Both the position numbers and the translations under genes were made by a program. A stretch of DNA of 62,710 nucleotides from Paracoccaceae bacterium (lineage in GTDB: Bacteria > Pseudomonadota > Alphaproteobacteria > Rhodobacterales > Rhodobacteraceae), in contig CACGIS010000003.1 in NCBI GenBank assembly GCA_902573175.1, positions 1-62,710 on the forward strand, given 5' to 3'. Below are positions 33,587 to 60,423 of this stretch, in pieces; positions within the stretch are counted from its first letter, which is position 1, and every line of letters starts with the position of its first letter. The notes beneath the pieces are model-generated. The model searched no databases. It saw only the letters and a program-made list of their open reading frames with translations, and had not been told where the DNA came from.

Positions 33587-33615
33587 TTGACACTATCTTA
33601 TCGGTCGCTAATAAT
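33587..33615 (+). promoter_or_regulatory. Promoter of the FAD-oxidoreductase gene
   Basis: TTGACA at 33587-33592, 17-bp spacer, AATAAT at 33610-33615 (five of six bases of TATAAT). The palindromic operator starts five bases after the -10, over the expected transcription start, as for a repressor site. Confidence 0.7.
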
Positions 33616-33619
33616 TTTC

Positions 33620-33631
33620 GCAAACGTTTGC
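33620..33631. promoter_or_regulatory. LacI-type operator, site 1 (GCAAACGTTTGC)
   Basis: Perfect 12-bp palindrome centred on CG, 17 bp before the ATG of the FAD oxidoreductase. Matches the other three sites in this window (36450, 45689, 60383) at 11 or more of 12 positions. Probable target of the LacI-family protein encoded at 44575-45594. Confidence 0.75.
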
Positions 33632-33647
33632 ATATAAATGAAAAGAA

Positions 33648-35222
33648 ATGATGACAGATTTTGTTATAGCTGGGGCGGGACACAACAGTTTAATAACTGC
33701 CTGTTATCTTACAAAGGCTGGATTTTCTTGTACGATAATTGATGCCCGACATATCCCTGGAGGAGGTTGCGCAACTGAGGAAGTACTTGGTCAAGGCTAT
33801 AAAATAGATACTTGCTCGACGGGACATACTCTTATCTTGCAAAACCCTATAATCAGTCAAGATGAACTGGGTTTAGTGAAAGAATTTGGTCTATCGTATC
33901 TACACCCCGATCCGGTTGCTCACGTAGCCCTTCCTGATGGTGAGCAAATAACAATGACCCTCGATCCTCAAGAAACAGCTATGGAATTTTCGCGGTATTC
34001 GCAAAAGGACGCTGAAAGCTATTTAACGCTTTTAAAAGAATTTGATGAACTTAAGCCAATGTTGGGACAAGCCCGGTCGCAACCATTGGGAATGGGGCCA
34101 TCTTTAAAACAGTTATTAGAAGGGCACAAAAGGGGTGCAATTTGGCAAAGACGTCAAGCTATGAGCGCGCGTGACGTAATCATGCGTGAGTTTGAAAGTG
34201 AGCATGTCCGTGCATTTATGGGTTGGATGGCCTTTCAAACGGCAGTCCCTATAGATCAGGCGGGGACGGGTTTTCTTCCCTATCAAATCACTGCGCCTAG
34301 GCAGGCACGCAGTTGGTCTATACCAAAAGGAGGTTCCGGAAAACTTACTGACGGATTAGTAAGCTATTTAACTTCAAGGGGTGCTCGTTTTGAACTCAGT
34401 AAAAAAATTGAAAAATTGATTTTTGATGGGCGTAAATGCGTGGGCGTGGCCTGCTCCAATGGAAAAGAATATAAGGCAAAGCAAGGAGTTGTATCGACAA
34501 TACATGTTAAGCATTTAATTGATATGGCGCCCAATGATTTTTGGGATGAAAATTTTAGGTTTTGTGTTGATACTTATAATGTTGGTGTTCCATTTTTCGC
34601 TAGCTACCTAGCTACGACAACAGCGCCTATTTTTGAAACTCCACGTGGCCCTAAATCTGCAGTTTCTGCGGGCTATGCGGGTTGGTTGAGTGATTTAGTG
34701 CAGTCGGGCCGCGATATTTATGATGGTAAGTTATCTTCTGATATTTCGTGGCTGCTTGTAGCCACGCCGACATTAGTTGACCCCGATCGGGCGCCAAATG
34801 GCAATCACACTGTAAAGTTTCTTACTCACACAATTTATGATCTGCCTGGATCTGGAGCAAATGGTTGGAGTTCATTTAAGGAAGAATTTACAGATCGTCT
34901 TATTAAAAAAATACAAAAGTTTTGTCCTACTTTTACGGATGATGTAATTTTAAACAAACTTATTAAATCACCAGTAGATATCGAAGCTTGGAACCCCCAT
35001 ATGATAAATGGCGCTCCTCACGGAGGGGATCGTTCAATAACTTTCTCCGGAGAACAAAGACCTGTTCCTGGGTGGGCACAACACAGGATGCCAATTGAAG
35101 GACTTTGGCAAACGGGAGGGACTACTCATCCTGGTGGTTCAATCACTGGCTATCCAGGAAGAAATGCGGCCAAGGTTATTTTTTCTGACCTCGGAATAGA
35201 CCCATCTAAGCACATGTTTTAA
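33648..35222 (+). CDS. FAD-dependent oxidoreductase, phytoene desaturase-like
   Basis: 524 residues. Rossmann FAD site at the N-terminus: FVIAGAGHNSLITACYLTKAGF followed by IIDARHIPGGGC. The middle (GGSGKLTDGLVSYLTSRGARFELSKK) and C-terminal (HPGGSITGYPGRNAAKVI) blocks are those of the phytoene desaturase/amine-oxidase-like superfamily that also includes many uncharacterised marine oxidoreductases. Starts at ATG 33648 with a second ATG at 33651. A single gene under its own operator, opposite in direction to the next gene. Substrate unknown; a role in the first oxidation of the imported compound is possible. Confidence 0.9.
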   Translation: MMTDFVIAGAGHNSLITACYLTKAGFSCTIIDARHIPGGGCATEEVLGQGYKIDTCSTGHTLILQNPIISQDELGLVKEFGLSYLHPDPVAHVALPDGEQITMTLDPQETAMEFSRYSQKDAESYLTLLKEFDELKPMLGQARSQPLGMGPSLKQLLEGHKRGAIWQRRQAMSARDVIMREFESEHVRAFMGWMAFQTAVPIDQAGTGFLPYQITAPRQARSWSIPKGGSGKLTDGLVSYLTSRGARFELSKKIEKLIFDGRKCVGVACSNGKEYKAKQGVVSTIHVKHLIDMAPNDFWDENFRFCVDTYNVGVPFFASYLATTTAPIFETPRGPKSAVSAGYAGWLSDLVQSGRDIYDGKLSSDISWLLVATPTLVDPDRAPNGNHTVKFLTHTIYDLPGSGANGWSSFKEEFTDRLIKKIQKFCPTFTDDVILNKLIKSPVDIEAWNPHMINGAPHGGDRSITFSGEQRPVPGWAQHRMPIEGLWQTGGTTHPGGSITGYPGRNAAKVIFSDLGIDPSKHMF

Positions 35223-35224
35223 TA

Positions 35225-36361
35225 TTACATATTTTTAGCTAACCATTGGAATGCTATGGGTCCCCATTCTGCTTGATGATCAAAAGCGCAATGGCCTGAT
35301 CCTTTGTAAACTTTGGCACTCCTCATGCCGGGTTTACCGGACTGTAGCATAAAGTAAATATTGCTAGCAGGGGCCAGGCCATCTTCGTCCCCATTAATCA
35401 TAAGTACGGGCATACTTATTTTATCGACTAATCCGAGCGAGTCTAATGACCATTTCTTTGACATTTCATACTCCTGTTCTGGCGACCAAGCAGGAACCCA
35501 ACTTGGACCATCTTTGTCCCCGAATTGAAATTGTGCTCGCTCGTTTCTCGTTTTAACTATTTCCTCCATATCTTTTTTTGATGGTTCGTTATGAAAAGGG
35601 TGCCCAGCAACAGCAACCACTGATTTAATTTTGGCTGGCGCAGTTCCAGCAAGTTGAAGGACCGAGTATCCCCCTCTGCTAATACCAAAAGCTCCAACTC
35701 GATTTGAATCAACTTCTTTTCTTGCCATTAAGTAGTCTACTGCTGCTTCCCAGGCTACTACAGATTCGGGAGCCCAAGGAAATTCATTCTCGCCAGTCCC
35801 GGGAGCATCCATAACTAGTGCAGCAAGTCCATTCTCAAGAGCTAGTTCTGCGGCCCAACCCCGGTCTTCTTTAAAGACGTCAGCGCCACACATAATCAAT
35901 ACCGCAGGCACAGGTGAATCACACTTTGGAACTCTGAAGTGTGCTCTGACGGTTAAACCATTGCAAACGATTTCTGCTATTTCAATTTTTGGTTCCAAAT
36001 GTCTACACGCTTTTTCATAAGCTCTGGAGCAATCCTGGCTAATTTCCCTTTTTAAATCAGTTATTTCAGATGGAAATCGTCCAATGGCATAGTGGGTTTT
36101 GGCAAGTAAATATTGGTTTCTAGCATCTTCAAAATTTCCCGCTTTCTCAGCTTCATCGCCGAGTTTCTCAAATTTTCGACCTGCTTGTCGCCAAACTGGT
36201 ACCCAGTTGGTTTGTAATGTTGTGTCTAGTTGCTTAACGGTAAATTCAAATTCTTCAATATTATCAATCATTTGAATCCATCTTCTGTAAAATCCACCAC
36301 GCGCAACAATAAACGGATTTTCGCCAGGAATATGTGGTAGATCGGAAATTTTTTTGCTCAT
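35225..36361 (-). CDS. FrsA-type alpha/beta hydrolase
   Basis: 378 residues. An N-terminal helical cap (residues 1-130) precedes an alpha/beta hydrolase core. Nucleophile Ser is in GAFGISRGGYSVL; acidic residue in NGDEDGLAPAS and His in GSGHCAFDHQ. It resembles the FrsA/DHPON-hydrolase group, like the gene at 48048. Its start (36361) is divergent from the ABC operon whose operator lies at 36450, so both may be controlled together. Ends 2 bp from the FAD oxidoreductase gene. Cleaves a C-C or ester bond; substrate unknown. Confidence 0.88.
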   Translation of the reverse strand: MSKKISDLPHIPGENPFIVARGGFYRRWIQMIDNIEEFEFTVKQLDTTLQTNWVPVWRQAGRKFEKLGDEAEKAGNFEDARNQYLLAKTHYAIGRFPSEITDLKREISQDCSRAYEKACRHLEPKIEIAEIVCNGLTVRAHFRVPKCDSPVPAVLIMCGADVFKEDRGWAAELALENGLAALVMDAPGTGENEFPWAPESVVAWEAAVDYLMARKEVDSNRVGAFGISRGGYSVLQLAGTAPAKIKSVVAVAGHPFHNEPSKKDMEEIVKTRNERAQFQFGDKDGPSWVPAWSPEQEYEMSKKWSLDSLGLVDKISMPVLMINGDEDGLAPASNIYFMLQSGKPGMRSAKVYKGSGHCAFDHQAEWGPIAFQWLAKNM

Positions 36362-36449: not shown

Positions 36450-36461
36450 GAAAACGATTGC
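36450..36461. promoter_or_regulatory. LacI-type operator, site 2 (GAAAACGATTGC)
   Basis: Reverse complement of GCAATCGTTTTC: 11 of 12 bases of the 45689/60383 operator. It lies 70 bp before the ABC binding-protein gene and 89 bp before the divergent hydrolase gene. A second half-site-like TCGTTTTG follows at about 36465. Confidence 0.65.
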
Positions 36462-36530: not shown

Positions 36531-38189
36531 ATGAATAATAGCATAAGCAAAAAGGGTATATTAACTTTGCTGGCTAGTGCATTTTTTGCATTTACGGCAC
36601 CTGTCGTTTCGCTAGCGAATGTTAAAAATCCTGGACTTTTGGTTCATGCGGCTGACGATGAGGCGACTACGCTGGACCCCGCGCAAGTTGAGCCTGGAGA
36701 AGGTGGTGAAACGATTATTCTTCAAGTTTATGATCGACTTCTAGACATTGATCCATACAGCCCAAATCTAGTTCCTTCTCTTGCAACGGAAGTACCCACA
36801 GTTGGTAATGGTGGTATTTCTTCAGACGGATTGACCTACACTTTTAAATTACGTGAGGGTGTCACTTTCCATGATGGAACAGGCTTTACTGCTGATGATG
36901 TAAAGTTTTCTTGGGACCGCGCGATGGAAATGGATTTACCTGAAGGAAATGCCGGAGCTTTGTCTGATGTGGTGGCATCGACGGAAGTTGTGGATGATTA
37001 TACTTTCCGCGCTACACTTTCCGAACCGGTTGCGGATTTTTTAAATTCTGTGGTAGTTTCAATGGTTTCCTCGATTGTAAGTCAAGATGCTGTAGAAGCA
37101 AATGGCGGGGTTGAGGCTGGAGTTCCGAATGAATTCATGGCTGGTAATATGGTGGGCACTGGGCCCTACAAATTTGTTGTTTGGAATAGAAATGAAAATG
37201 TCCAACTAGAAGTTAATGATAGCTACTGGGGTGAAAATGCAAAGTTAGACGTGCGAATTGAAATTGGTGGTGATCCTGATGTTCGAGTTTTGGGCTTAAG
37301 AGCTGGTGAGTTCGATACTGTAGAAACTGATCCATCATTTGTTGCAGATCTGGAAGGCGCTGATGGTGTAACTATTTATACCGGTGGATTGCTTTTAGAG
37401 CCTCTTCACATTGGTTTTAATTTGAACATTCCTGAAGGTTCATTGCCTGATGGTGATACAATTCCAGAAGACTTTTTCCATGACCCTCGTATTCGACAAG
37501 CGTTCAACCACGCTTTCCATTATGAGGCTTTCTTGAATGGACCACTTGCCGGGTACGGTGCCTTTAATCCTCATTATACGCCTATCGGTATTTTTGGACA
37601 TGATCCTTCAGCGTCGGTATATTCAAAGCAAAATTACGCTGAGGCAGAGCGCCTGTTTAAAGAAGCTGGTGTCTGGGATGAGGGTTTTTCAGTATCAGTA
37701 ATAACTGAAGAGGGTAATCTTTTTGCACTTATGTGTCTTGTACTCAAAGATTCAATTGAGAAGCTTAACCCAAAGTTCCGAATTAATGTACTCGCAGTGG
37801 CTGAAGCTGTTTTTGACGATGCGCATGCTCAGAATCCGCTCGAATACGCTATGTGGGCCAAAAATGCTGATCCAGCTGCAGATCCAAATTTTTACATGCA
37901 GGCGTATCAGCATCCAGATGGTGAGTGGGGGGAAGTTCACGGCTTCGCTAACGGGTATAAGGATGCCGATAAGGTTGCAGAGCTTATAGATGCAGCTGCA
38001 GTTGAACTAAACCCTGATAAGCGTGCTGCTTTATATAAAGAATTGAACGAAATTCTTTACAATGACCCTATGTGGCTCATTGGAGCTCAGGAGGGTGTAG
38101 TAATGGCGCATCGTGACTGGCTGAAGGGGTTTGTTCAAAATCCACTGTGGCCACGTCCAAGCCTAAAATTTTCTTTATTTGATAAGTAA
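36531..38189 (+). CDS. ABC transporter substrate-binding protein, family 5
   Basis: 552 residues with a signal peptide (hydrophobic core ILTLLASAFFAFTAPVVSLA). Peptide/opine/nickel-type (family 5) binding protein: DPAQVEPGEGGETIILQVYDRLL, LREGVTFHDGTGFTADDVKFSWDRAME and NMVGTGPYKFVVWNRNENV are characteristic. Delivers a peptide-like or other amine-containing compound to the permeases encoded next. AAGGGAG precedes the ATG. Intercistronic hairpin at 38207 follows. First gene of a six-gene operon (36531-43589) under operator site 2. Confidence 0.94.
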   Translation: MNNSISKKGILTLLASAFFAFTAPVVSLANVKNPGLLVHAADDEATTLDPAQVEPGEGGETIILQVYDRLLDIDPYSPNLVPSLATEVPTVGNGGISSDGLTYTFKLREGVTFHDGTGFTADDVKFSWDRAMEMDLPEGNAGALSDVVASTEVVDDYTFRATLSEPVADFLNSVVVSMVSSIVSQDAVEANGGVEAGVPNEFMAGNMVGTGPYKFVVWNRNENVQLEVNDSYWGENAKLDVRIEIGGDPDVRVLGLRAGEFDTVETDPSFVADLEGADGVTIYTGGLLLEPLHIGFNLNIPEGSLPDGDTIPEDFFHDPRIRQAFNHAFHYEAFLNGPLAGYGAFNPHYTPIGIFGHDPSASVYSKQNYAEAERLFKEAGVWDEGFSVSVITEEGNLFALMCLVLKDSIEKLNPKFRINVLAVAEAVFDDAHAQNPLEYAMWAKNADPAADPNFYMQAYQHPDGEWGEVHGFANGYKDADKVAELIDAAAVELNPDKRAALYKELNEILYNDPMWLIGAQEGVVMAHRDWLKGFVQNPLWPRPSLKFSLFDK

Positions 38190-38206
38190 AAAACTACTTA
38201 AAAATA

Positions 38207-38230
38207 CACAGGCCCATTTTTGGGCCTGTG
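38207..38230 (+). other. Intercistronic hairpin after the binding-protein gene
   Basis: Perfect 10-bp stem CACAGGCCCA / TGGGCCTGTG (38207-38216 and 38221-38230), loop TTTT, with no T-tract behind it. More likely an mRNA-stabilising element raising binding-protein yield than a full terminator. Confidence 0.7.
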
Positions 38231-38246
38231 ACTTGGAGAAAGATTA

Positions 38247-39260
38247 ATGCAATTACGCGATTATATTTTGCGCCGTCTAATGGTGCTCCCATTTTTGATA
38301 ATTGGTGTCAGTATAGTTGTTTTCACTTTGACGCGTGTTGGTGGGTCTCCAATTGGTATTTATCTAAGCCATGAAATGACGCCAGATGAAGTGCTTGAGA
38401 TAGAACAGCGATTTGGCTTAGATAAACCCGTCTGGGTTCAGTATTTGCAGTGGGCAAAAGGTGTGCTGAGCGGGGACTTTGGATGGTCGGGCATATCCGC
38501 GGCTCCAGTAGCAGACGTTTTCCCTTTGAAATTAGCTGCCACTATGGAATTGGCTGCTGCTTCGGGTCTTGTAGCCCTTTTTCTTGGAATATTTTTGGGA
38601 ACCTTTGCTGGTGCCCGGCGAAATCGAGCTCCAGATCACATCACCCGCATTGTTGCGGTAAGCGGTGCTAGTTTACCTCAGTTTTGGTTTGGAATTCTAT
38701 TACTAATCGTTTTTTGGGCAAATCTTGGTATAGCTCCGATAGGGAGATCAGATGCGACTGTTTTTGCATCAATAAATCATCCCACTGGTCTATATACTTT
38801 AGACGCTATTTTAGCGGGATCGCCTCGAGCCTTTTGGGATGCGATATGGCATTTAATGTTGCCAGCAATTACTCTCGGCTATGGGGCGACAGCAATCATT
38901 GCCAGAATGATGCGATCAGCTCTCGTCGAAGAACTTCAGCAAGACTACGTTGATGCTGCTCGAGCCAAAGGTTTGGCTGAAAAATTAGTATTAAAGAAGC
39001 ACGCAAGGAGAAACGCTCTTGTTCCGACGATAACTGTAATCGGTCTAACTTTTGGCTTTCTTTTGCAGGGAACGATTACAGTTGAAATTATTTACAGATG
39101 GCCAGGATTGGGTCGTTGGATGGCTGCAAGTGTCGTAAGAGGAGACCAAGGCACATTAATGACTTACGTTCTTTTTACTTCTGTATTGTTTTTAATAGTA
39201 AATCTCATTGTGGATGTGGTTTATGCAAACTTGGATCGAAGAGTTACTCTTGGAAAATAA
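38247..39260 (+). CDS. ABC transporter permease, DppB/OppB type
   Basis: 337 residues, six membrane segments. RLMVLPFLIIGVSIVVFTLTRVGG is the usual first helix; DYVDAARAKGLAEKLVLKKHARRNALVPTITVIG is the EAA loop that contacts the ATPases; GTITVEIIYRWPGLGRWM is typical of the family. Pairs with the next permease, which begins 1 bp after its stop. Confidence 0.95.
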   Translation: MQLRDYILRRLMVLPFLIIGVSIVVFTLTRVGGSPIGIYLSHEMTPDEVLEIEQRFGLDKPVWVQYLQWAKGVLSGDFGWSGISAAPVADVFPLKLAATMELAAASGLVALFLGIFLGTFAGARRNRAPDHITRIVAVSGASLPQFWFGILLLIVFWANLGIAPIGRSDATVFASINHPTGLYTLDAILAGSPRAFWDAIWHLMLPAITLGYGATAIIARMMRSALVEELQQDYVDAARAKGLAEKLVLKKHARRNALVPTITVIGLTFGFLLQGTITVEIIYRWPGLGRWMAASVVRGDQGTLMTYVLFTSVLFLIVNLIVDVVYANLDRRVTLGK

Positions 39261-39261
39261 A

Positions 39262-40182
39262 ATGAACGAAAGAGCTTTCGATAATTTGCATTACGATGGT
39301 GACACGGCTTTTCGGGTTAGGATAAGAAGGTTTGGTGCTCTTCTCGGTAGGCTGTGTTCTAATCCCACCACTGTTATAGGATTAATCATTATAGGATTGA
39401 TGATGGCAATGGCGATCTTTGCTCCATGGATTACTGAAGCTAATGTTCCTGATCCATATCAAATGCCGAGGGATTGGGGTGCGGTAAGGAAACCTCCAGG
39501 GACCCCTGGTTTTCTGTTGGGAACAACTAATGAGGGTGGGGATGTTTTTTATGGAGTGGTATGGGGAAGCCGAACTTCTCTTCAGTTATCGCTTTACGTA
39601 GTAGGCTCAACAATGATTATTGGAACGATTATTGGTTCACTGGCTGGGTTGTTAGGTGGTTGGGTTGACGAATTTTTGATGCGTTTAGTTGATGTATTTC
39701 TTTCAATACCAGAACTCATCTTCGCTTTGGCGATTGCTGCTGTTTTGGGGCCCTCTTTTACAAATATTATTATAGCACTCTCGATGGTAATTTGGGTGAA
39801 ATATGCGAGAATTATGAGGGCTCAAGTACTTCAAGTAAAGCAAAACGAATATGTGGAAGCAGCCAAGGTGATTGGCGATACTAAGCTGAATATTTATCTG
39901 AAAGACATTTTGCCTAATGCCGTTACGCCAGTAACGGTACAAGCGACGCTTGATATGGGAAATGTTGTCTTAATCGGTGCAACGCTAAGTTTCATTGGCT
40001 TGTCGGAAGCTGGAATAGCTGAATGGGGTGTCTTAGTAAGCGAGGGTCAAGCCGGTATAGCATCTGGCAGATGGTGGGCGTCAACCTTCCCAGGTATGAT
40101 GATATTTTTGTGGGCGCTCGCTTTCAATTTAGTGGGGGATGGTTTGAGGGATGCACTTGACCCTAGGACGGAAGGTCGATGA
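39262..40182 (+). CDS. ABC transporter permease, DppC/OppC type
   Basis: About 306 residues. Starts at ATG 39262, one base after the previous stop; the longer frame begins inside the previous gene and is not needed. Blocks: TVIGLIIIGLMMAMAIFAPWI, LGTTNEGGDVFYGVVWGSRTSL and the EAA loop NEYVEAAKVIGDTKLNIYLKDILPNAVTPVTV. Its stop overlaps the next ATG (ATGA). Confidence 0.94.
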   Translation: MNERAFDNLHYDGDTAFRVRIRRFGALLGRLCSNPTTVIGLIIIGLMMAMAIFAPWITEANVPDPYQMPRDWGAVRKPPGTPGFLLGTTNEGGDVFYGVVWGSRTSLQLSLYVVGSTMIIGTIIGSLAGLLGGWVDEFLMRLVDVFLSIPELIFALAIAAVLGPSFTNIIIALSMVIWVKYARIMRAQVLQVKQNEYVEAAKVIGDTKLNIYLKDILPNAVTPVTVQATLDMGNVVLIGATLSFIGLSEAGIAEWGVLVSEGQAGIASGRWWASTFPGMMIFLWALAFNLVGDGLRDALDPRTEGR

Positions 40183-41393
40183 TGTTAGATACATCCGACC
40201 AGAAAAACTTCGTTGCTAAGGTCGATGACCTAAAAGTGTATTTTAATTCAAAGCGTGGGACGGTTCATGCGGTTGATGGGATTAGCTTTGATGTCTACAA
40301 GGGGGAGACGTTAGGACTGGTAGGAGAAACTGGATGTGGAAAATCAGTCACTGGGCGTTCTTTCTTACAACTTTTACCAATCCCACCAGGTGTGCTTGCT
40401 GGTGGCAGTATTACTTATAATCAACAGACAAATTCCTCCCAACGGATTGAAACTGGCTCCAAACCTGGGTTTCCAAATAGTAGAAATTTTGAATTCAAAA
40501 AAGTAGATCTTCTGACTTTAACAGGTGAAGAAATCAGAAAAATTCGTGGCGACAGTATTGCAATGATTTTTCAGGATCCAGGCAAGTCACTTAACCCAAC
40601 CTTAACTATCGGTGCACAGCTTTCAGAAGTTTTTCTACAGCATAGAACTGAAGAGATTTTGGAAATGGCCGGTCTTGGCAGTGAGGCTCCCGGCGCGATA
40701 AGAAGATTTGCATCACAGCGCAATAGAATATTCGATAAGTGGTTGGTGAATTTGTCAGGCAACCGTTTAACGAAATCTCGAGTAGAAAAAGCAGTTGCTG
40801 ATCTGGTTGCAAAAGCACTTTCAGATACACAAGTCCCAAACCCGGTAAAGCTTATGGATCGATATCCACATGAGCTATCGGGTGGGATGAAGCAGAGAGT
40901 TATGATTGCTCAAGCTTTGGCTTGTAATCCAGATATATTAATAGCTGATGAGCCAACAACTGCTTTGGATGTAACTGTGGAAGCTAGGATACTAGATTTG
41001 ATCCAAGATTTACAGCAGAGGCGCCAGACTAGTGTTGTTTACATAAGCCATGATTTATCGCTAGTTCGACGAATTTGCGACAGAGTGGCCGTAATGTATG
41101 CTGGTCGAATTGTTGAGATTGGCACTAATAATGAAATCTTTAAAAATCCTCGCCACCCATACACGATAGGATTGATGAAGGCATTGCCTTCTGCCGATAC
41201 AGCTCGGGGGGAACTACTTGCTATACCTGGTAATGTTCCAGAACTCATTAATCCTCCTCAAATGTGTAGGTTTTCTTCAAGATGCGCATTTGCAACAGAT
41301 AAGTGTAAAAACCAGGACCCTCAGCTTGAAAAAGTGACAAACTCTCACTCGGTAGCATGTTTTGCAGATGTTGCTGAAATTTCTGGCAAATGA
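40179..41393 (+). CDS. ABC transporter ATPase, OppD type, with inserts
   Basis: 404 residues, about 70 longer than usual OppD. Walker A GETGCGKS, Q-loop MIFQDPGKSLNP, signature LSGGMKQR, Walker B ILIADEPTTALDV and H-loop YISHDLSL are intact, and the C-terminal zinc-finger-like RFSSRCAFATDKC is present. Extra segments occur between Walker A and the Q-loop (residues about 82-115) and between Q-loop and signature (about 160-215, including RRFASQRNRIFDKWLVNLSG). Start overlaps the preceding stop. Confidence 0.94.
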   Translation: MMLDTSDQKNFVAKVDDLKVYFNSKRGTVHAVDGISFDVYKGETLGLVGETGCGKSVTGRSFLQLLPIPPGVLAGGSITYNQQTNSSQRIETGSKPGFPNSRNFEFKKVDLLTLTGEEIRKIRGDSIAMIFQDPGKSLNPTLTIGAQLSEVFLQHRTEEILEMAGLGSEAPGAIRRFASQRNRIFDKWLVNLSGNRLTKSRVEKAVADLVAKALSDTQVPNPVKLMDRYPHELSGGMKQRVMIAQALACNPDILIADEPTTALDVTVEARILDLIQDLQQRRQTSVVYISHDLSLVRRICDRVAVMYAGRIVEIGTNNEIFKNPRHPYTIGLMKALPSADTARGELLAIPGNVPELINPPQMCRFSSRCAFATDKCKNQDPQLEKVTNSHSVACFADVAEISGK

Positions 41394-41418
41394 CTATTTA
41401 TGATTTGGAAGATAATAA

Positions 41419-44546: not shown

Positions 44547-44574
44547 TTTTGACCATGTTTGTGCAAAGTTTATA

Positions 44575-45594: not shown

Positions 45595-45664
45595 AATTTT
45601 CTCAACTAAGTAAGATTATCATTTAGCGACTTTTACAAACTATTGCTATAGTCTATTGACCGAT

Positions 45665-45693
45665 TTGACTGTAATTGCTAAGCTCAATGCAAT
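45665..45693 (+). promoter_or_regulatory. Promoter of the long catabolic operon
   Basis: TTGACT at 45665-45670, 17-bp spacer, TGCAAT at 45688-45693. The -10 lies inside operator site 3. A further TTGACC lies at about 45655. Confidence 0.55.
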
Positions 45694-45700
45694 CGTTTGC
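45689..45700. promoter_or_regulatory. LacI-type operator, site 3 (GCAATCGTTTGC)
   Basis: Identical to site 4 at 60383 over all 12 bases. Lies between the divergent LacI gene and the OsmC-led operon and overlaps the predicted -10 box, as expected for repression of both directions. Confidence 0.75.
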
Positions 45701-50440: not shown

Positions 50441-50489
50441 TTTAGTAAAGACTTTTAACAGAATCTGGTTTCTCAAAAGGGCTCAAGGT

Positions 50490-52471: not shown

Positions 52472-53441
52472 AGTAAAAATGCCTCAGTTAGGAATGAACC
52501 AAGATACTGCGTTGGTAGTTGCATGGTTTAAAAAAGAAGGTGACAAAATTGAGAAGGGGGACCCTTTATTTGAGGTGGAAACTGATAAAGCCACCATGGA
52601 GGTAGAAGCTCAAAAAGAAGGTTATTTATCGAAAATTAAGGTTGATGAGGGATCTGAAGTACCCGTTGGTCAACTTTTGGCGTTAATTTCTGATACTAAT
52701 GAGGATAGTCATAATGGCCAAACAGATTTGGCCGGCTCTGATGCATTTGAGCCGATGGAACCTGACGCTGAACCCATTAATGATAAAAGTATAGAAAATG
52801 AGGTTCAAAACATTGAAGATCCTTCCGATAGAAAGGAACTAGTTAACAGGATTACCAGGAACAATGTGGGTAGTGCAGGCGGTAAAGTTTTAGCTTCTCC
52901 TAAAGCTAAGTTTGCAGCTAAAGAGATGGGCTTTGATCTTGCTGAATTGAGAAATTCTGGAATTGCAGAACCTTTTCATTTTGCCGATCTAGGCCGTGTG
53001 CCCCAAAGCCCGAGCTTTTCGTCTATTTATATGCAAGTTTCGGCTGAAGCGTTTGATGCTCTTATTTTGAAATCGGAAACTGCAAAACGGAGTTTATTGT
53101 TTTCAAAGTTTACCAGTAGTGCCTGGAGTTTTGTTTTTGAAGATAGTTTCTTGGAGGTAATATTTAAAGATACAAACGGTGAAAGTTATGTTGAAACTAC
53201 TACTGAAGCTGTCAGTTCTAGTGATGTAGCAAATACTATAACGCTTATCGATCTTTGTGACACTAGAATAAGTGCATATGAAACTGGGTCCAATAAACTC
53301 ACTTTGAGTTTTTCCCAATTGCGAAATGAACTCACTATCTGTTTTTCTTTCAATGAAAGGATTTTAAAATTTCCGGATGCTGTAAAATTTTTGAACGAAT
53401 TGGGGGCAAGGATAGAGGACCCTATACTCCAACTTATTTAA
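52461..53441 (+). CDS. E2-like lipoyl protein with degenerate catalytic domain
   Basis: 326 residues instead of about 420. Lipoyl domain 1-80 with Lys43 in VETDKATMEV, a flexible linker, an E3-binding domain at about 138-175 (VLASPKAKFAAKEMGFDLAELRNSG), and only about 145 residues of acyltransferase fold. The DHRxxDG active site is replaced: FNERILKFPDA puts Asn298-Glu299-Arg300 where Asp-His-Arg belongs, so catalytic His is missing. The end IEDPILQLI still matches E2 C-termini. It probably carries the lipoyl arm but cannot transfer acyl to CoA in the usual way. No E3 gene is nearby. Confidence 0.88.
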   Translation: MSYEVKMPQLGMNQDTALVVAWFKKEGDKIEKGDPLFEVETDKATMEVEAQKEGYLSKIKVDEGSEVPVGQLLALISDTNEDSHNGQTDLAGSDAFEPMEPDAEPINDKSIENEVQNIEDPSDRKELVNRITRNNVGSAGGKVLASPKAKFAAKEMGFDLAELRNSGIAEPFHFADLGRVPQSPSFSSIYMQVSAEAFDALILKSETAKRSLLFSKFTSSAWSFVFEDSFLEVIFKDTNGESYVETTTEAVSSSDVANTITLIDLCDTRISAYETGSNKLTLSFSQLRNELTICFSFNERILKFPDAVKFLNELGARIEDPILQLI

Positions 53442-53454: not shown

Positions 53455-54888
53455 ATGAGCTTTTTGAATAAACTGTATATTGGAGGTGAGTGGCGAGAGG
53501 CATCAGATGGGGGTACTTTCGAAGTTCTAAACCCTGCAGATGAAAGTGTTATAACAAAAGTCTCTAGCGGGACGACAGAGGATGCAGTAGCCTGTGTAAA
53601 TGCGGCTGAGGCTGCATTCGATGGCTGGGCTGGATTAAGTCCTAGAGAACGTGGAGAGATTTTAAGAAAAGCATATGAGCTTTTCATAAAGAAAATCGAT
53701 GATATTGCTCAACTTATCACTCTAGAAAATGGAAAAGCCGGTGGCGATGCAATCGGCGAAGCAAGATATGCTGCTGAATTTTTCCGTTGGTATGCAGAGG
53801 AGGCTGTTAGATCCGATGGCCATTTAGGAATGGCACCGGCAACGGGAGCTAGAATTTTGGTACATCAGAAGCCTGCTGGGATTTCCGTGCTAGTCACACC
53901 ATGGAATTATCCGGCGGCAATGGGTACTAGGAAAATCGGACCGGCGCTCGCGGCAGGATGCCCAGTAATCGTAAAACCAGCATCTGAAACGCCTTTAACT
54001 ATGCTAGCTTTAATGCCTATCCTTTCTGAAGCGGGCGTCCCGCCGGGAGTTGTAAATGTTCTTCCGTCAAGATCATCGGGGGCAGTGGTTTCTAAAATGC
54101 TTTCAGATTCTAGGGTCAGGGTGGTTAGTTTCACAGGTTCCACGGAAGTTGGCAGAAAGTTATTACATGCAGCTGCTGACAATATTGTTAAACCAGCAAT
54201 GGAATTAGGTGGAAACGCTCCATTTATTGTTTGTAAAGATGCGAACATTGAAGCTGCAGCAGACGGCCTAATGGTGGCAAAAATGCGAAACCTTGGCGAA
54301 GCCTGTACTGCAGCGAACAGGATATACGTACATGAAAGTTTAAAAGACAAATTCATAGCTTTATTTTCAAAGAAAATGGCTGCGCTTAAGATGGGAAATG
54401 GGGTTGAGCCCGATGTTGACGTTGGACCATTGGTGAATGCAGAGACACGAGACAAAGTCGAGTATTTTGTTTCAGATGCTATTTCCAAAGGTGCTAAATT
54501 GGAAGTAGGCGGTGTTAGGCCAAATATTCCAGGTTTTTTCTATCCTCCAACCGTTTTGAGTAATGTGCCGGATGATGCGGATTGTCTATCGGATGAAATA
54601 TTTGGACCTGTTGCTGCCATACAAACCTTTGCTGATGAAAAAGAAGTCATCGAAAGATCAAATTCAACAGAATATGGTTTGGTTGCATACTTGTACACTG
54701 AAGATGTTCGACGAGGCTTAAGTTTATCAGAAAAACTCGAGTTCGGTATGATTGGACTAAATAGAGGTTTGGTATCTGACCCTGCTGCACCTTTTGGTGG
54801 AGTTAAGCAGTCTGGCTTGGGGCGAGAGGGCGGCAAAGAGGGAATGTTGGAATTTCAGGAAACACAATATATTTCAACTGAATGGTAG
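53455..54888 (+). CDS. NAD(P)-dependent aldehyde/semialdehyde dehydrogenase
   Basis: 477 residues. TPWNYPAAMGTRKIGPALAAGCPVIVKPASETP, the glycine loop FTGSTEVGRKLL, catalytic Glu in MELGGNAPFIV and Cys in LGEACTAANRI are present. Closest in pattern to succinate-semialdehyde and related dehydrogenases. Thirteen bases after the E2-like gene in the same operon. Oxidises an aldehyde intermediate; substrate unknown. Confidence 0.93.
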   Translation: MSFLNKLYIGGEWREASDGGTFEVLNPADESVITKVSSGTTEDAVACVNAAEAAFDGWAGLSPRERGEILRKAYELFIKKIDDIAQLITLENGKAGGDAIGEARYAAEFFRWYAEEAVRSDGHLGMAPATGARILVHQKPAGISVLVTPWNYPAAMGTRKIGPALAAGCPVIVKPASETPLTMLALMPILSEAGVPPGVVNVLPSRSSGAVVSKMLSDSRVRVVSFTGSTEVGRKLLHAAADNIVKPAMELGGNAPFIVCKDANIEAAADGLMVAKMRNLGEACTAANRIYVHESLKDKFIALFSKKMAALKMGNGVEPDVDVGPLVNAETRDKVEYFVSDAISKGAKLEVGGVRPNIPGFFYPPTVLSNVPDDADCLSDEIFGPVAAIQTFADEKEVIERSNSTEYGLVAYLYTEDVRRGLSLSEKLEFGMIGLNRGLVSDPAAPFGGVKQSGLGREGGKEGMLEFQETQYISTEW

Positions 54889-54991: not shown

Positions 54992-55471
54992 ATGCAAAGT
55001 GAATTAAGGTGCACGATCAACGGAGTTGTGCATGCTATCGACGGTTTTAGTAGTGAACCACTCCTTTTTTTTCTCAGGGATAAAATAGGTCTTAGATCAA
55101 CGAGATATGGCTGCGGCCAAGGGACATGTGGATCTTGTACTGTAATAATTGATGGTGAGGCCAAAATGTCGTGTGAGACAATCACTAAGGACGTTTCGGG
55201 AAAAACCATAGAAACAGCTGAGGTTTTTGAAAATCAACATGAACATCCATTAGTTAAATCATTTATTGAATTTCAAGCCGGCCAATGTGGTTATTGTCTG
55301 CCAGGAATTTTAATGGCTTCCAAATCGCTACTTGATAAAAAACAAAATCTCTCAAGGTTGGAGATAGCAGAAGCTTTGGATGCAAATCTTTGTAGATGCG
55401 GAGCTCACTCTCGCATTCTTGATGCTATTGAGAAAGCTCATCAATTATCAAATGAAAAAGGCACCCAATGA
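54992..55471 (+). CDS. [2Fe-2S] subunit of a molybdenum hydroxylase
   Basis: 159 residues with two iron-sulfur clusters: ferredoxin-like CGQGTCGSCTVIIDG plus a further Cys, and the C-terminal QCGYCLPG...LCRCGAHSRI motif. Small subunit of xanthine-dehydrogenase/isoquinoline-1-oxidoreductase type enzymes. Its stop overlaps the start of the large subunit by 4 bp. About 100 bp after the aldehyde dehydrogenase gene, the largest gap in the operon, so an extra promoter is possible. Confidence 0.93.
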   Translation: MQSELRCTINGVVHAIDGFSSEPLLFFLRDKIGLRSTRYGCGQGTCGSCTVIIDGEAKMSCETITKDVSGKTIETAEVFENQHEHPLVKSFIEFQAGQCGYCLPGILMASKSLLDKKQNLSRLEIAEALDANLCRCGAHSRILDAIEKAHQLSNEKGTQ

Positions 55472-57579
55472 AAAATCAAGTGCCTAAACCTCTTCTTGAT
55501 TATCCGAAATTAGGTGATTGGCTGAAAGTAACTCCCGAAAAAAAATTAGTATTCTTTTCGGGCAGGGTTGAGCTCGGTCAGGGTAACATCACCGCTTTGC
55601 TAATGATGATTTCTGATGAACTGGGGATTGAGCCAGAAAAAATTTCTTTACAGACTGCTAGAACGGATATGACGCCCAATGAGGGTTTCACAGCAGGAAG
55701 TATGTCTATAGTTCATGGTGGTCAATCTCTTAGATCGGCTGTCGCGACTTTGCGGCAGCAAATTCTAAATATAAGTGCTTCACGGTTGGGAGTTGATGCT
55801 ATTGAACTCGATCTGTCAAGTGGGCAGATTCTTCAGAAGGGATCATTTTGTTTCTCTATCGATGAGGTTTTAGATCAGATTGATCTATCAAGTGAAATTC
55901 CAGCAGGCGCAAAAATAAAGGAACCTTCGCAAAGATGGGTTCAGTTTAGAGAGATTGACCGAGTTGATTTGGTGGAGAGAATGACGGGAGCTCCTTTTGT
56001 TCATGATATGATAGAGGAGGGCATGCTTTTTGGGGCACCAGTGCATCCCGCTAATATGTATTCTAAACTTTTGAACTTAGATGTTATCGCTTTGTCAAAA
56101 AGGCCTGGGGTTATTAAAGTTGTTCAGGATGGATCATTTGTTGGAGTTTTAGCGACAAGTCAGAGATTTGCATTAGAAGCGGCTGAGTGGGCAAGAGAAA
56201 AGTCTGAATGGAAAGAAATTGACAGAAAGATTGAAAATCCAATTTCTCATTTAATGTCACAGAGCCATGACTTTGAAATTGTTTCCGAAACAGGGGACGT
56301 AAATAAAAACTCTGGTGAGTGGTACGAACTGACAGTATCGCGACCATATATTTTCCATGGTTCAATTGGGCCAGCAGCAGCAGTTGCAAAATGGGAAAAC
56401 GAGAAACTTACAGTTTGGACACACAGTCAAGGTGTTTTCCAGTTAAGAGATGCTCTAGCTGGCGTTTTTGAAACAGCAGAAGAAAATATAACCGTAATAC
56501 ACAAAGCTGGGTCAGGCTGTTATGGCCACAATGGTGCTGATGACGCCGCATTGGATGCTGCAATTTTGGCTAAAGAAGTTGAAGGAATACCTGTCAAAGT
56601 TGTATGGTCTAGGTATGATGAGTTTCATGCAGCTCCTATGGGGGCCGCTATGTCAACAAAATCAAGAGCTCACTTGGATCAAGATGGATATATAACGGCA
56701 TTTGATGTTGAAGTTACTTCTGTACCACATTCATCTCGCCCTGGCACTGGCGGGACACCAAATTTACGTTCTGCTGTCCTTATTAAAAATTCAAAATTGC
56801 CCGCCAAATCTCCTGATGTTCCAGCTATTAGGGGAGGTGGAGCTGAAAGAAATGCCGTGCCGTCTTATGAATTTGGCCCAGTTCGGGTGAAGAAAAGACT
56901 AGTACATGATCTACCCTTCCGGGCCTCAGCATTAAGATCTCTTGGTGCATATAATAATGTAATCGTAAACGAGGGGCTGATTGATGAAATAGCCCATAGA
57001 AATGGAGAGGATCCTTTAGCTTTTAGAATTAAACATTGTGTCGATGATAGGTCGAAAGAATTGTTATTAAGATTAGATAGTGAAACCAAAAGGTATAAAG
57101 AAAATCTCAAGGAAAGTCAGGGTTGGGGCGTTGGGTATGCTCGATATAAAGGTATTTCAGGTCTGTGCGCTGTCTTTGTCAATGTAACTGTTGATGAGGG
57201 GGTTGTCGTTGACAACGTAGTTTCAGTTTCTGATGTCGGTGAGGCCATAAGCCCAGATGGTGTAAAAAACCAAATAGAAGGCGGGATAGTCCAATCTATT
57301 AGTTGGACGCTTAAAGAAGCTGTAAAAACAGATGGACTTTCTACAACTGTAGATAGTTGGTTCGATTATCCAATTATAAAATTTAGTGAAATTCCATCTT
57401 TAAATACAATACTGATAGAGCGTCCATCTGAAAAACCTTTGGGCGCTGCAGAGATTTCTCAAGGTCCAGCAGGGGCAGCCGTTTCGAATGCAGTAAGACA
57501 TGCACTAGGTGTTAGAATTACAGAGCTTCCCATTACAAGAGAGGCTATAATTAATTCACTATTATCTAATGAAATTTAA
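55468..57579 (+). CDS. Molybdopterin-binding subunit of a molybdenum hydroxylase, IorB/NicB-like
   Basis: 703 residues. The protein opens with [16 protein letters not shown] (GQG motif) and then [13 protein letters not shown]...GAPVHP, an order seen in isoquinoline 1-oxidoreductase/nicotinate dehydrogenase large subunits. [17 protein letters not shown] is a cofactor loop, and the catalytic Glu is in [18 protein letters not shown] near the C-terminus. No Tat signal is visible, so it is likely cytoplasmic. Hydroxylates a ring carbon beside nitrogen or oxidises an aldehyde. Last gene of the operon; convergent with pckA, overlapping by 4 bp. Confidence 0.9.
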
Positions 57580-59180
57580 AAAACCAAAGCATCCTTAACA
57601 TCGTTATCAACGCTCGGCAGATATTGTTCAAAATTTGAAATAAAAAGGCCTACAAGCTTTTTTGCAGCTTGATCATAAGCAGCTTTATCTTCCCATGTGT
57701 TTCTGGGGTTTAAATACTTTGGATCCACTCCTGGCACAAACTTAGGAACCTCAAAACCAAAATTTTCATCTTTGACAAATGTTGCGGTGTTCAAGTTGCC
57801 GTCAATGGCAGCTGCCAACAGAGATCTAGTCACATTTATTGGCATCCTAGAGCCTATTCCATGCCCACCACCTGTCCAGCCTGTGTTAACTAGCCAGCAA
57901 AAGGTTTTATTTTCTGAAATCTTCTTTTTAAAAAGGTTCCCGTAGACTTGCGGTGGTCTGGGAAGAAACGGAGCGCCAAAACAGGTAGAAAACGTTGGCT
58001 CTGGTTCTGTCACTCCCCTTTCGGTACCTGGAGCTTTAGAAGTAAAACCTGACAGAAAATGATACATGGCTTGCGCAGGTGTTAGTTTAGCCAAAGGAGG
58101 CATCACGCCAAACGCGTCGCAGGTAAGTAAGATCACATGTTTGGGGTTTGCCGCCAACCCAGTTTCGCTAGAATTAGGTATGTAGTGCATCGGATAAGCA
58201 GCCCGCATGTTAGCCGTGAGACTGTCATCTTCAAAATTCAACTTTTTAGTCCTTTGATCGTAAACCATATTTTCAATAACCGTAGAAAACAAAGAGGTCG
58301 TTCTATAGATATCGGGTTCTGAGTTCTCTGAAAGGTTAATTGTCTTGGCATAACATCCACCTTCAAAATTAAATATGCCCTTATCAGACCAACCATGCTC
58401 GTCATCGCCAATTAAAATCCGGCCTGGATCCGACGATAGAGTTGTTTTTCCGGTACCTGATAATCCAAAAAAGATCGCAGAATTTGAGGGATCTTTCTTT
58501 GAAATATTTGCGGAGCAGTGCATTGGCATTATTCCAGCCTCGGGCAATATATAATTAAGCAGCGTAAATACGGCTTTCTTGTTCTCTCCTGCGTATTCAG
58601 TTCCACCGATCAAAATAAGTTTTTTATCAAAATTTATTGCTATAACCGTTTCAGAACGGCATCCGTGTTTTTCAGGGTCAGCAAAAAATCCAGGAAGGTT
58701 TATTATTGAGAAGTCACAAACAAAATCTTTAATTTGATTTTGTTCTGGTCTTATTAAAAGATGTCTTATGAATAAATTGTGCCAGCATAGTTCAGAGATT
58801 ACCCTTACACCTATTCTATTTTCTGGATCTGCTCCGCCAAAAAGGTCTTGCACATATAAATCTTTTCCATCCACATAATGCAGCATATCCTTGTGCAATC
58901 TGTTAAAAGCATCGGTTGACATTCTTGCATTGCGCTCCCACCATACCGAGTTTTTGGTCGCCTCACTGACAACAATATGCTTATCTTTAGGGGACCTACC
59001 CGTAAATTTTCCTGTCTTTACAAGGAGGGTTCCTCCAATGCCGAGCTCACCTTCTTTACGCATCAGTGAGTGTGCAATTAAATCGGGCTCTGTAAGATTA
59101 AAATAGGCGTTTCTGAAGCCGTCAATTCCTTGATTGATTAAGTTGAGCTTTGGATTGTACAGTCCGTGAGCAGCGGTCAT
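57576..59180 (-). CDS. pckA: Phosphoenolpyruvate carboxykinase (ATP)
   Basis: 534 residues. P-loop [43 protein letters not shown], and the ATP-type hallmarks [20 protein letters not shown] and [15 protein letters not shown] are present. Converts oxaloacetate to PEP for gluconeogenesis, fitting growth on non-sugar carbon such as this island would supply. Upstream region holds two 17-bp identical direct repeats (59253 and 59275) that may be its control site. Monocistronic. Confidence 0.98.
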
Positions 59181-59252
59181 GGTTCAGTCCTTTTATAAAC
59201 TCTGATATTCTAAATAATTTAAAAACGCTGGAAGTGAAATGCCTCTGGGAGA

Positions 59253-59498: not shown

Positions 59499-59534
59499 AA
59501 AAAGTCTTCGGTTTAAATTTACCAAAAAATTGGG

Positions 59535-60341
59535 TTAATTACTTTTCAAATATTTTTCGACTATAGAACTGTTTGCTCCCCTGCCTAGACTTAGTTCAGG
59601 AAATTGTTCTGACAATCTACTACCTCTATAGAAAGCGATTTTAGAAGCTGGCCTAGTCTGTGCTTTTTCGAGCCAATGTTTGACACCTTCAAATCTGTTG
59701 TTCCACAAGTCATCAAGTCCTAAGTCTTCCATCCTATCGATGGAAGGTAAAATTGCCATATCGCCAATGGTATAATCTTTTCCCATTAACCAAGGACCAC
59801 CAAACTCTTTTAAAAGATATTCCATCCTTATGAAGGTTCGCTCAAATATGGAAAATGATGTAAATATATCTTTTTCAGAAAAACCTGAGTTTTTATCGAA
59901 GGAATTATAGAATTCTTTTTTCAGTGGGCGTTTTTCCTTGAGTTCATCAAATTTTTCTTGTGACATTTTCTTAAATTTTTCTAATAAGCCGCCGAAGTGG
60001 AACGAAGGTGTTCTGACTGCAGGTGCGGGCCAAACATCAACAAAAATTAACCAAGCCCTTAATTGGCTGCAAAGAAAGGGATCGGTTGGACGGAATTTTT
60101 TCTGTCTGAACTCATCTTCTAAATATTCTAAAATTGCGGTGGACTCATAAATTGGTTTTCCGTTGTGTAATAATGTTGGCACAACACCGTTTGGGTTCAA
60201 TTTCAAATACCAATCTGATAAATGTTCATTATCAGAAGATATAAGCCTTTTATCCGTCCAGGTTATCTCTTTTTCCGCTAGCTGTAGTCTAACTTTTAAG
60301 CTGCAAGTTGATTGAGAGAAATTATAGAGTTCTAGCGACAT
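59535..60341 (-). CDS. LigF-like glutathione transferase, second copy
   Basis: About 268 residues, same architecture as the GST at 47282: LYNFSQSTCSLKVRLQLAEKEI, LNPNGVVPTLLH, ESTAILEYLEDEF, then MSQEKFDELKEKRPLKKEF and GFSEKDIFTSF. Start set at ATG 60341 (MSLELYNF); the longer frame would run through the operator at 60383. The two GSTs are clearly diverged, so probably different substrates or stereochemistry. Divergent from the Gfo/Idh gene with operator site 4 between them. Confidence 0.85.
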   Translation of the reverse strand: MSLELYNFSQSTCSLKVRLQLAEKEITWTDKRLISSDNEHLSDWYLKLNPNGVVPTLLHNGKPIYESTAILEYLEDEFRQKKFRPTDPFLCSQLRAWLIFVDVWPAPAVRTPSFHFGGLLEKFKKMSQEKFDELKEKRPLKKEFYNSFDKNSGFSEKDIFTSFSIFERTFIRMEYLLKEFGGPWLMGKDYTIGDMAILPSIDRMEDLGLDDLWNNRFEGVKHWLEKAQTRPASKIAFYRGSRLSEQFPELSLGRGANSSIVEKYLKSN

Positions 60342-60382
60342 GCCTAATCTCAATTTGTCAAAGATTTTTTGAATTAATACGC

Positions 60383-60394
60383 GCAATCGTTTGC
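60383..60394. promoter_or_regulatory. LacI-type operator, site 4 (GCAATCGTTTGC)
   Basis: Identical to site 3. One base before the -35 of the rightward promoter (60396) and 42 bp before the leftward GST start codon, so it can control both divergent units. Confidence 0.75.
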
Positions 60395-60395
60395 A

Positions 60396-60423
60396 TTGAC
60401 AACAGGGTGTACCAAGTTATTCT
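60396..60423 (+). promoter_or_regulatory. Promoter of the Gfo/Idh-creatininase operon
   Basis: TTGACA at 60396-60401, 16-bp spacer, TATTCT at 60418-60423. Operator site 4 ends at 60394, directly before it. GGAGG at about 60432 provides the ribosome site for the ATG at 60446. Confidence 0.7.

Follow-up and report, generated by a model that had tools for sequence, protein, structure and literature searches.

A candidate LacI-family repressor regulon, marked by conserved palindromic operators, spans a rearranged catabolic gene cluster in a Paracoccaceae bacterium

Results

Candidate operator sites in the window

The window analysed here is a stretch of 62,710 nucleotides from a Paracoccaceae bacterium (contig CACGIS010000003.1 of assembly GCA_902573175.1, hereafter G000, 1.53 Mb). 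Its second half carries a lacI gene and, around it, genes for a flavin adenine dinucleotide (FAD) oxidoreductase, an ATP-binding cassette (ABC) importer, several hydrolases and dehydrogenases, two LigF-like glutathione transferases (GST2 and GST3) and a molybdenum hydroxylase (Table 1), interspersed with near-identical 12-bp palindromes that would be the operators of the LacI protein. The initial annotation of this stretch had listed four such 12-mers, at 33620, 36450, 45689 and 60383, and all of them are there; what it missed is a second, degenerate operator in front of lacI, at 45635.

The core of the site, GCAAWCGWTTGC, occurs exactly three times in the window (0.02 expected) and five times when one mismatch is allowed (0.68 expected), counts that none of 100 shuffled sequences reached. 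With two mismatches allowed the excess becomes weak (17 sites against 10.8 expected, a count reached by 4 of 100 shuffles), so that only the strict form of the site is informative. Operator 2, with one mismatch to the core, is the weakest of the four. In the whole source assembly, at 58.8% completeness, the exact core is found three times, always within the window. With one mismatch allowed there are 19 sites, five of them in the window, against 7 for a reversed-pattern control; one-mismatch sites outside the cluster thus say little, and whole-genome scans at that setting are uninformative there. The fifth one-mismatch match in the window, at 35963, was rejected as an operator: it falls within the FrsA-like gene, and the near relative G001 has no matching site at one mismatch or fewer, so that it is probably a product of chance.

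Conservation of the sites was examined in relatives. G001 (75% complete) keeps all four operators at the same places and has a better second site at lacI, GCAAACTATTGC, as the counterpart of the degenerate operator of the window. It also holds a fifth operator beyond the point matching the end of the window, whose letters, GCGAACGTTTGC, are identical in G001, G010 and G129 (L021 2791; L118 16054; G129 C5:2356). In G001 this fifth site stands before an NMT1-type ABC transporter; TauE genes lie on the opposite side of the site, and two further GST genes are close by. In G010 the site precedes an ABC ATPase gene. Both exact matches of G010 (90% complete) lie on the 36-kb contig that bears the cluster, the single exact match of G129 (97% complete) lies at lacI, and the letters of operator 2 recur beside FrsA1 in G129 (L098 3849).

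The four sites also stand out in a matrix scan. The matrix rests on 37 sites that come from other genera and were chosen by the consensus of the initial annotation at one mismatch, and is in this sense not blind. The sites rank first to fourth among 62,691 positions, with scores of 22.8, 22.2, 20.9 and 14.4, against 9.5 for the fifth-ranking position of the window and, in 100 Markov windows, a median maximum of 12.8 and a highest score of 18.6.

The palindrome accompanies one LacI clade

The lacI gene lies divergent from operator 3, as the initial annotation stated, and forms a divergent pair with the OsmC gene. Its product has a helix-turn-helix domain (PF00356) and a periplasmic-binding-protein-like sensor domain (PF13377), and reaches none of the 19 listed NCBIfam cut-offs for named groups (RbsR, CcpA, CytR, UriR, GntR, MalI, GalS, PurR and others), the best score being 205 bits against a cut-off of 382 (RbsR). 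It is the sole DNA-binding regulator among 30 open reading frames (ORFs) put to Pfam between 27.6 and 62.4 kb, a set that covers only some of the small ORFs.

Of 394 family genomes, 18 have a match to this LacI at E<=1e-60 and 15 at E<=1e-80. We compared 26 orthologues (38-100% identical, the window included) with 33 other LacI-family genes (25-39%). All 18 genomes were taken in: the 15 at E<=1e-80 were called orthologues, and the remaining three (36-38% identical) were counted among the other LacI genes, with the boundary placed afterwards at a gap in identity. To the orthologues were added G010 and loci with this LacI from ten of the 23 plasmid records that matched (L125-L127, L131-L137); four of these ten (38-43% identical) were retained once their neighbourhoods and sites had been seen. 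G001 was left out as a near-copy. The set is uneven, since six of its 26 members are closely related Rhizobiaceae.

When all 4096 palindromic 12-mers were enumerated over the upstream regions of 24 orthologues, with the window and G010 left out and the consensus of the initial annotation unused, GCAATCGATTGC came first, in 19 of 24 regions, followed by its sister GCAAACGTTTGC in 11; the next unrelated palindrome was found in 2. Within 250 bp upstream of lacI, 20 of the 26 orthologues have an exact site and 23 a site with one mismatch or fewer, against no exact site and a single one-mismatch site before the 33 other genes. In a tree of 50 rows (the orthologues and 24 of the other genes) the 26 orthologues form one group with moderate support (93/82), with several very long branches among the others. 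That the same palindrome emerges de novo before orthologues of other genera, and is nearly absent before other LacI genes, supports the reading that the sites go with this LacI clade.

Geometry of the putative promoters

The degenerate operator and operator 3 lie 54 bp apart, and in 17 of the 26 orthologues paired operators (two mismatches or fewer each) are 53-57 bp apart. Between them we read a promoter-like element absent from the list of the promoter scan; a TTGAC-type -35 element lies between the paired operators in the window, G001, G010 and G029. By our reading, operator 3 begins 4 nt past the proposed -10 element; operator 1 likewise begins 4 nt past a -10-like element, and operator 4 ends just before the -35-like element of the Gfo/Idh gene. 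Promoter-like matches overall are not above shuffles in the two scanned regions (31 against 28.2, and 9 against 14.8). This geometry would fit repression at operators 1 and 3, and a regulatory effect of either sign at operators 2 and 4. Two gene starts are affected: the listed OsmC ORF (from 45675) swallows operator 3, the better fit being a start at the GTG at 45735; operator 4 overlaps the listed start of GST3, the true start of which is probably inside the listed ORF.

One set of genes in different arrangements

In G010 and G129 the genes of the window are found in one cluster. Its order is GST3, FAD oxidoreductase, FrsA1, importer (G010 only), hydrolase 2, Gfo/Idh, creatininase, 2-hydroxyacid dehydrogenase, amidohydrolase and LacI, then OsmC, HIBADH, GST2, FrsA3, M24, E1alpha, E1beta, lipoyl protein and aldehyde dehydrogenase, and at the end E2 (G010 only), molybdenum hydroxylase and phosphoenolpyruvate (PEP) carboxykinase (G129). 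The Gfo/Idh and creatininase genes are directly behind hydrolase 2 there, and in G010 the importer genes in turn come before hydrolase 2. The window has these pieces of the cluster apart, each with its own operator, and the GST3-Gfo/Idh-creatininase piece is about 15 kb from lacI. The single cluster of G010 and G129 supports the proposal of the initial annotation that these units stand under one switch. In relatives the decarboxylase-like amidohydrolase belongs to the cluster, as does PEP carboxykinase in several of them: the ATP-type gene lies with the cluster or next to lacI in L105, L108, L114 and L140, and a GTP-type gene in L131 and L132 (two Rhizobiaceae). The pathway may thus have its end point below PEP and require gluconeogenesis.

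Sites also accompany a piece of the cluster that lies apart from lacI. The HIBADH-GST2 operon of G104 and G203 is on a different contig of the draft assembly from lacI and is preceded by several kilobases of other DNA; it nevertheless has two one-mismatch sites, spaced 54 bp apart. No site at one mismatch or fewer was found at the M24 loci L141, L144 and L145, beside a sugar-binding-protein gene, nor at the M24 pieces L142 and L143, which lie at contig ends and look like continuations of split operons.

Across the 394 family genomes, GST2 (E<=1e-70) is found in 12, all of them among the 15 that have this LacI at E<=1e-80 (12/15 against 0/379; Fisher's p=1.8e-20). At least three exact sites, counted per genome by eye, are found in 10 of these 15 genomes against 32 of the 379 others (p=1.3e-7); one or more are present in 14 of the 15 and in 185 of the 379. 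With all 18 genomes taken as carriers, the figures are 12/18 against 0/376 for GST2 and 10/18 against 32/376 for three or more exact sites.

One candidate switch with two lower halves

Sites with one mismatch or fewer precede the lacI genes of Shinella, Rhizobium, Ensifer, Sinorhizobium and Bosea; those of Skermanella and Streptomyces are confined to the surroundings of other cluster genes. In five of seven Rhizobiaceae loci (L125, L126, L131, L135 and L137) the LacI gene is accompanied by a Liv-type importer, GST2 (64-69% identical), an intradiol dioxygenase, a BKACE enzyme and a zinc alcohol dehydrogenase. The importer and GST2 are absent from L132, and in L136 the importer is accompanied by a less closely related dioxygenase (39%) and by pieces of the zinc dehydrogenase. 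The dioxygenase of L126 is nearest to PnpC and hydroxyquinol 1,2-dioxygenases. The neighbours of the Streptomyces LacI are HIBADH (46%), M24 (59%) and aldehyde dehydrogenase (54%), with an E1/E2 pair only about 30-34% like the E1beta of the window and the E2 of G010; this stretch is an M24-type form without a GST. Thus, what looks like one and the same switch occurs with two kinds of lower half.

A close dioxygenase (67% identical) was found only in G106 and G110 among 17 LacI genomes searched, and neither has an M24 match at E<=1e-100, which, in two cases only, is suggestive of one half taking the place of the other. At E<=1e-20, more distant dioxygenases (37-44%) appear in 6 of the 17 genomes, in five of them off the contig of lacI; G029 has one on another contig and also one on the contig of lacI, about 57 kb away.

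Gene content of the window

Table 1. Coordinates of the operators, promoter-like elements and genes of the window, with the basis of each assignment
Feature	Positions	Strand	Remarks
Promoter-like TTGACA-17-AATAAT of the FAD oxidoreductase gene	33587..33615	+	11/12 consensus, best of 31 in scanned region
Operator 1, GCAAACGTTTGC	33620..33631		Matrix rank 1; kept in G001
CrtO/amine-oxidase-like FAD oxidoreductase	33648..35222	+	PF01593, PF13450; NCBIfam CrtO match below cut-off
FrsA-like alpha/beta hydrolase (FrsA1)	35225..36361	-	PF06500; best solved relatives Ayg1-type hydrolases
Operator 2, GAAAACGATTGC	36450..36461		Matrix rank 4; kept in G001
SBP_bac_5/Dpp-type ABC importer (binding protein, two permeases, two ATPases)	36531..42669	+	PF00496, PF00528, PF00005, PF08352
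Alpha/beta hydrolase 2	42672..43589	+	PF00326 and related
Amidohydrolase 2, aromatic-decarboxylase type, downstream of lacI	43584..44606	-	PF04909
LacI-family regulator, 339 aa	44575..45594	-	PF00356, PF13377 above curated cut-offs
Second, degenerate operator, ACAAACTATTGC	45635..45646		54 bp from operator 3
Promoter-like TTGACC-17-TAAGCT between paired operators	45656..45684	+	Our reading; not listed by promoter scan
Operator 3, GCAATCGTTTGC	45689..45700		Matrix rank 3
OsmC-like protein	45735..46223 (GTG start proposed)	+	PF02566
Beta-hydroxyacid dehydrogenase (HIBADH-like)	46253..47218	+	PF03446, PF14833
GST2, LigF-like glutathione transferase	47282..48055	+	Best solved relative LigF, 6.2e-23
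FrsA-like hydrolase (FrsA3)	48048..49121	+	Best solved relative 2,6-dihydroxypseudooxynicotine hydrolase, 3e-38
M24 metallohydrolase	49133..50440	+	PF00557
E1alpha, E1beta, lipoyl-domain protein; 2-oxoacid dehydrogenase-like complex	50301..53441	+	PF00676, PF02779/PF02780, PF00364
Aldehyde dehydrogenase (SSADH-like)	53455..54888	+	PF00171; below SSADH cut-off
Two-subunit molybdenum hydroxylase	54992..57579	+	PF01799; PF20256, PF02738
PEP carboxykinase (ATP)	57576..59180	-	PF01293; no own operator found
GST3, LigF-like glutathione transferase	59535..60386	-	LigF 2.8e-26
Operator 4, GCAATCGTTTGC	60383..60394		Between divergent GST3 and Gfo/Idh genes; matrix rank 2; kept in G001
Promoter-like TTGACA-16-TATTCT	60396..60423	+	10/12 matches, best of 9 in scanned region
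Gfo/Idh/MocA dehydrogenase	60446..61510	+	PF01408, PF22725
Creatininase-family hydrolase	61569..62369	+	PF02633

The best functionally named solved relatives of the amidohydrolase, behind one entry named only amidohydrolase, are gamma-resorcylate and 5-carboxyvanillate decarboxylases. M24 matches at E<=1e-100 occur in 65 of the 394 family genomes and are 80-94% identical in all but one of the others. As a DddP dimethylsulfoniopropionate lyase the enzyme, which shares the M24 family and a weak similarity with it, was rejected at 107.9 bits against a cut-off of 600. An M24 relative (52% identical) lies at 11980-13362 of the Paenarthrobacter plasmid L129, next to RidA, a HIBADH-like gene and lpdA; the gene of a sulfonamide flavin reductase, sulR, is found on the same plasmid.

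Past about residue 80, the lipoyl-domain protein matches no Pfam family. The catalytic E2 acyltransferase that follows the aldehyde dehydrogenase gene in G010 and in roseobacter plasmids is absent from that place in the window and in G001, a comparison that covered this place alone (window 54888-54992, L020 9245-9352 and L022 2878-3633). The large subunit of the molybdenum hydroxylase (55468-57579) has an odd domain order, with the best MoCoBD_2 match at residues 18-136, MoCoBD_1 at 286-418 and a xanthine-dehydrogenase-type C-terminal match at 568-699. Just upstream of operator 1, a TRAP transporter is followed by a further glutathione transferase gene, GST1 (29458-33545), and no site at two mismatches or fewer was found with these genes.

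Discussion

We propose that a local LacI-family repressor regulon spans these units, a reading to which we give a probability of about 0.8. A LacI dimer would bind the CG-centred palindrome by its core. At the lacI/OsmC divergence two operators 54 bp apart, about five helical turns, would flank the promoter and repress both lacI, with the amidohydrolase gene behind it, and the run from OsmC to the molybdenum hydroxylase, which is the predicted extent of that operon. Single operators would repress the FAD oxidoreductase gene and the FrsA1/importer and GST3/Gfo-Idh divergent regions. An inducer derived from the imported substrate would bind LacI, and all units would open together.

Several observations weigh against this reading: (i) the source assembly is 58.8% complete, which is why relatives were added. 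(ii) Operator 2 is weak, its score being expected 0.28 times per Markov window, and it is the sole site of the four that the Markov windows reached; the operator at 45635 is degenerate, with a score of 6.5, eleventh in the window. (iii) Three of the 26 orthologues (L109, L127 and L134) lack a site at one mismatch or fewer within 250 bp upstream (192 bp in L109); all three have sites near other cluster genes. (iv) At least one exact site occurs in 185 of the 379 genomes without this LacI, where the sites presumably belong to other LacI proteins or arise by chance. (v) Among the 17 LacI genomes, G119, G170 and G369 gave no match to GST2 at E<=1e-50; G170 lacks exact sites as well. (vi) In the window, the space from the aldehyde dehydrogenase gene to those of the molybdenum hydroxylase holds no counterpart of the catalytic E2 gene of G010 (PF00198).

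As for what the regulon would serve, the importer would take a compound in and the enzyme set would oxidise it. The order of reactions that we would predict has the LigF-like GSTs cleave an ether- or thioether-type bond with glutathione, the FrsA-like hydrolases and the creatininase-like enzyme open C-C bonds, and M24, the E1/lipoyl complex and aldehyde dehydrogenase pass the products to central metabolism, with PEP carboxykinase serving gluconeogenesis. The nearest solved relatives have an aromatic leaning (LigF for GST2 and GST3, aromatic decarboxylases for the amidohydrolase, a nicotine-pathway hydrolase for FrsA3), more distant relatives of GST2 (33-36%) lie among aromatic-catabolism genes on pBAM2 and a Cupriavidus plasmid, and in five of seven Rhizobiaceae loci the LacI gene keeps company with GST2, a Liv-type importer and a hydroxyquinol-type dioxygenase. 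For these reasons we lean, tentatively and with rather less than even confidence, to an aromatic or phenolic ether as the substrate class, in preference to a cyclitol or sugar. Other signs point the other way. No intradiol dioxygenase is found among the 30 ORFs put to Pfam, and no dioxygenase like the rhizobial enzyme in G000, G001, G010 and G129, so that an aromatic ring would need opening by other means; LacI proteins usually sense sugars; and the Gfo/Idh and creatininase-family enzymes recall those of inositol catabolism. The module of short-chain dehydrogenase/reductase, M24, E1alpha, E1beta, lipoyl protein, SSADH-like enzyme and E2 lies beside sugar ABC transporters on roseobacter plasmids (L016, L017, L018 and L128) and in L144; these transporters, too, speak against an aromatic substrate.

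The alternative that survives best keeps the same regulon and makes a cyclitol or a rare sugar derivative its substrate, which we regard as possible and somewhat unlikely. The Gfo/Idh and HIBADH-like enzymes would then oxidise the compound, a 1,3-diketone ring would be cleaved by the creatininase- and FrsA-like hydrolases, and the resulting chain would pass to the E1/lipoyl complex and the aldehyde dehydrogenase, a route for which we hold the same reserve. It would agree with the roseobacter neighbourhoods of the M24-E1-aldehyde dehydrogenase module, with the below-cut-off matches of the Gfo/Idh and creatininase genes to the IolG and IolN models, and with the predominance of sugar regulators among LacI proteins described in the main text of a survey (PMC4052901); the LigF-like GSTs, the aromatic-decarboxylase-like amidohydrolase and the rhizobial hydroxyquinol-type dioxygenase argue against it. 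Scored against the models themselves, the Gfo/Idh protein as inositol 2-dehydrogenase IolG (115 of 355 bits) and the creatininase-family protein as 3-dehydro-scyllo-inosose hydrolase IolN (67.9 of 245 bits) were rejected. Mycosporine-like amino acids were considered as the substrate and are not proposed. With no specific function considered reaching a curated cut-off, and with signs of both kinds, the regulon is held strongly and the substrate class weakly. A wider formulation, which we offer as a guess a little less secure than the aromatic one, is that this repressor and its conserved operators control an undescribed glutathione-dependent pathway, one that would degrade a natural cyclic ether of phenolic or cyclitol-like type and whose lower half could be exchanged. 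Such halves would be, with similar reserve, a hydroxyquinol-type dioxygenase with BKACE (several Rhizobiaceae, and G106 and G110 among the Rhodobacteraceae examined) or M24 with the 2-oxoacid-dehydrogenase-like complex and aldehyde dehydrogenase (the window and relatives).

Other ways of reading the sites are less probable. If the LacI protein acted with a co-repressor, in the manner of PurR, or as an activator at some sites, the units would close, or one of them would open, upon binding of the ligand. Operator 4, just upstream of a -35-like element, would allow activation there, yet operators 1 and 3 (the latter by our reading) start in a repressing position and the paired operators flank a promoter, and we consider this mode improbable. 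It is very unlikely that their owner is instead a global regulator of the LacI family, of the GapR or PckR type, acting on central metabolism, a thought prompted by pckA, the PEP carboxykinase gene, which lies in the cluster and in relatives next to lacI; both proteins are predicted to control pckA in the main text of the survey (PMC4052901). According to the same text GapR occurs in all 13 Rhodobacteraceae surveyed, against 18 of 394 genomes (E<=1e-60) for the present LacI, a comparison made by distribution, and the exact sites of G000 are confined to the window; on these two grounds GapR and PckR were rejected as owners of the sites. Chance palindromes, which the weak enrichment at two mismatches might suggest, are virtually discounted by the shuffles, the de novo enumeration and the matrix ranks, together with the confinement of the exact sites to the window, their retention in G001 and the operon sites of G104 and G203.

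What would follow from the proposed regulon is that about 25 genes, many of unclear role, are tied to one switch, so that the substrate can be sought in a culturable relative by following one promoter. The M24 enzyme, to which no function is assigned here, becomes testable. If the ether reading were true, it would add a glutathione-dependent route for natural cyclic ethers in the alphaproteobacteria.

Comparison with known systems

In keeping with the impression recorded in the initial annotation that the combination is not a described pathway, we found in the open-licence literature no description of the gene set, of a link between LacI and beta-ether or lignin catabolism, or of the operator letters in this role. 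The letters themselves reportedly occur in a paper on purine control of competence, where a PurR-type site is expected. The words aromatic, glutathione and dioxygenase are absent from the main text of the LacI survey (PMC4052901), the supplementary files of which lie outside this comparison and may hold the clade.

A local LacI regulon is a known kind of system; its gene set here matches no described pathway that we recognise. The main text of the survey, which covers more than 1300 LacI proteins, counts nearly 90% as local sugar regulators (PMC4052901). With local LacI regulons of the RegPrecise type the present one shares a CG-centred even palindrome, a site beside the regulator's own gene, a divergent operon, and an importer with catabolic enzymes. 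The present cluster differs in that its gene content is no recognised sugar pathway, in its conserved operator pair, and in having four operators over 27 kb in the window and five over 35 kb in G001.

The enzymes show partial likenesses to three known pathways: (i) The beta-aryl ether pathway of sphingomonads, with LigD, LigF, LigE and LigG, shares with the cluster the LigF-like GST2 and GST3. In the active-site serine comparison, Asn-Ser of LigF stands opposite a Cys-Ser pair in GST2. However, LigF matches GST2 over residues 14-196, at E 6e-23, and no short-chain dehydrogenase of the LigD type is present among the 30 window ORFs put to Pfam; as an NCBIfam beta-etherase (NF042997) GST2 was rejected at 20 bits against 440, and for GST3 no match was listed. 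(ii) Hydroxyquinol and gamma-resorcylate catabolism has its counterparts in the decarboxylase-like amidohydrolase of the window and in the hydroxyquinol-type dioxygenase of the rhizobial version, the latter lacking in G000 and its three relatives as said above. (iii) The IolG/IolN inositol route resembles the cluster in its adjacent Gfo/Idh and creatininase-family genes.

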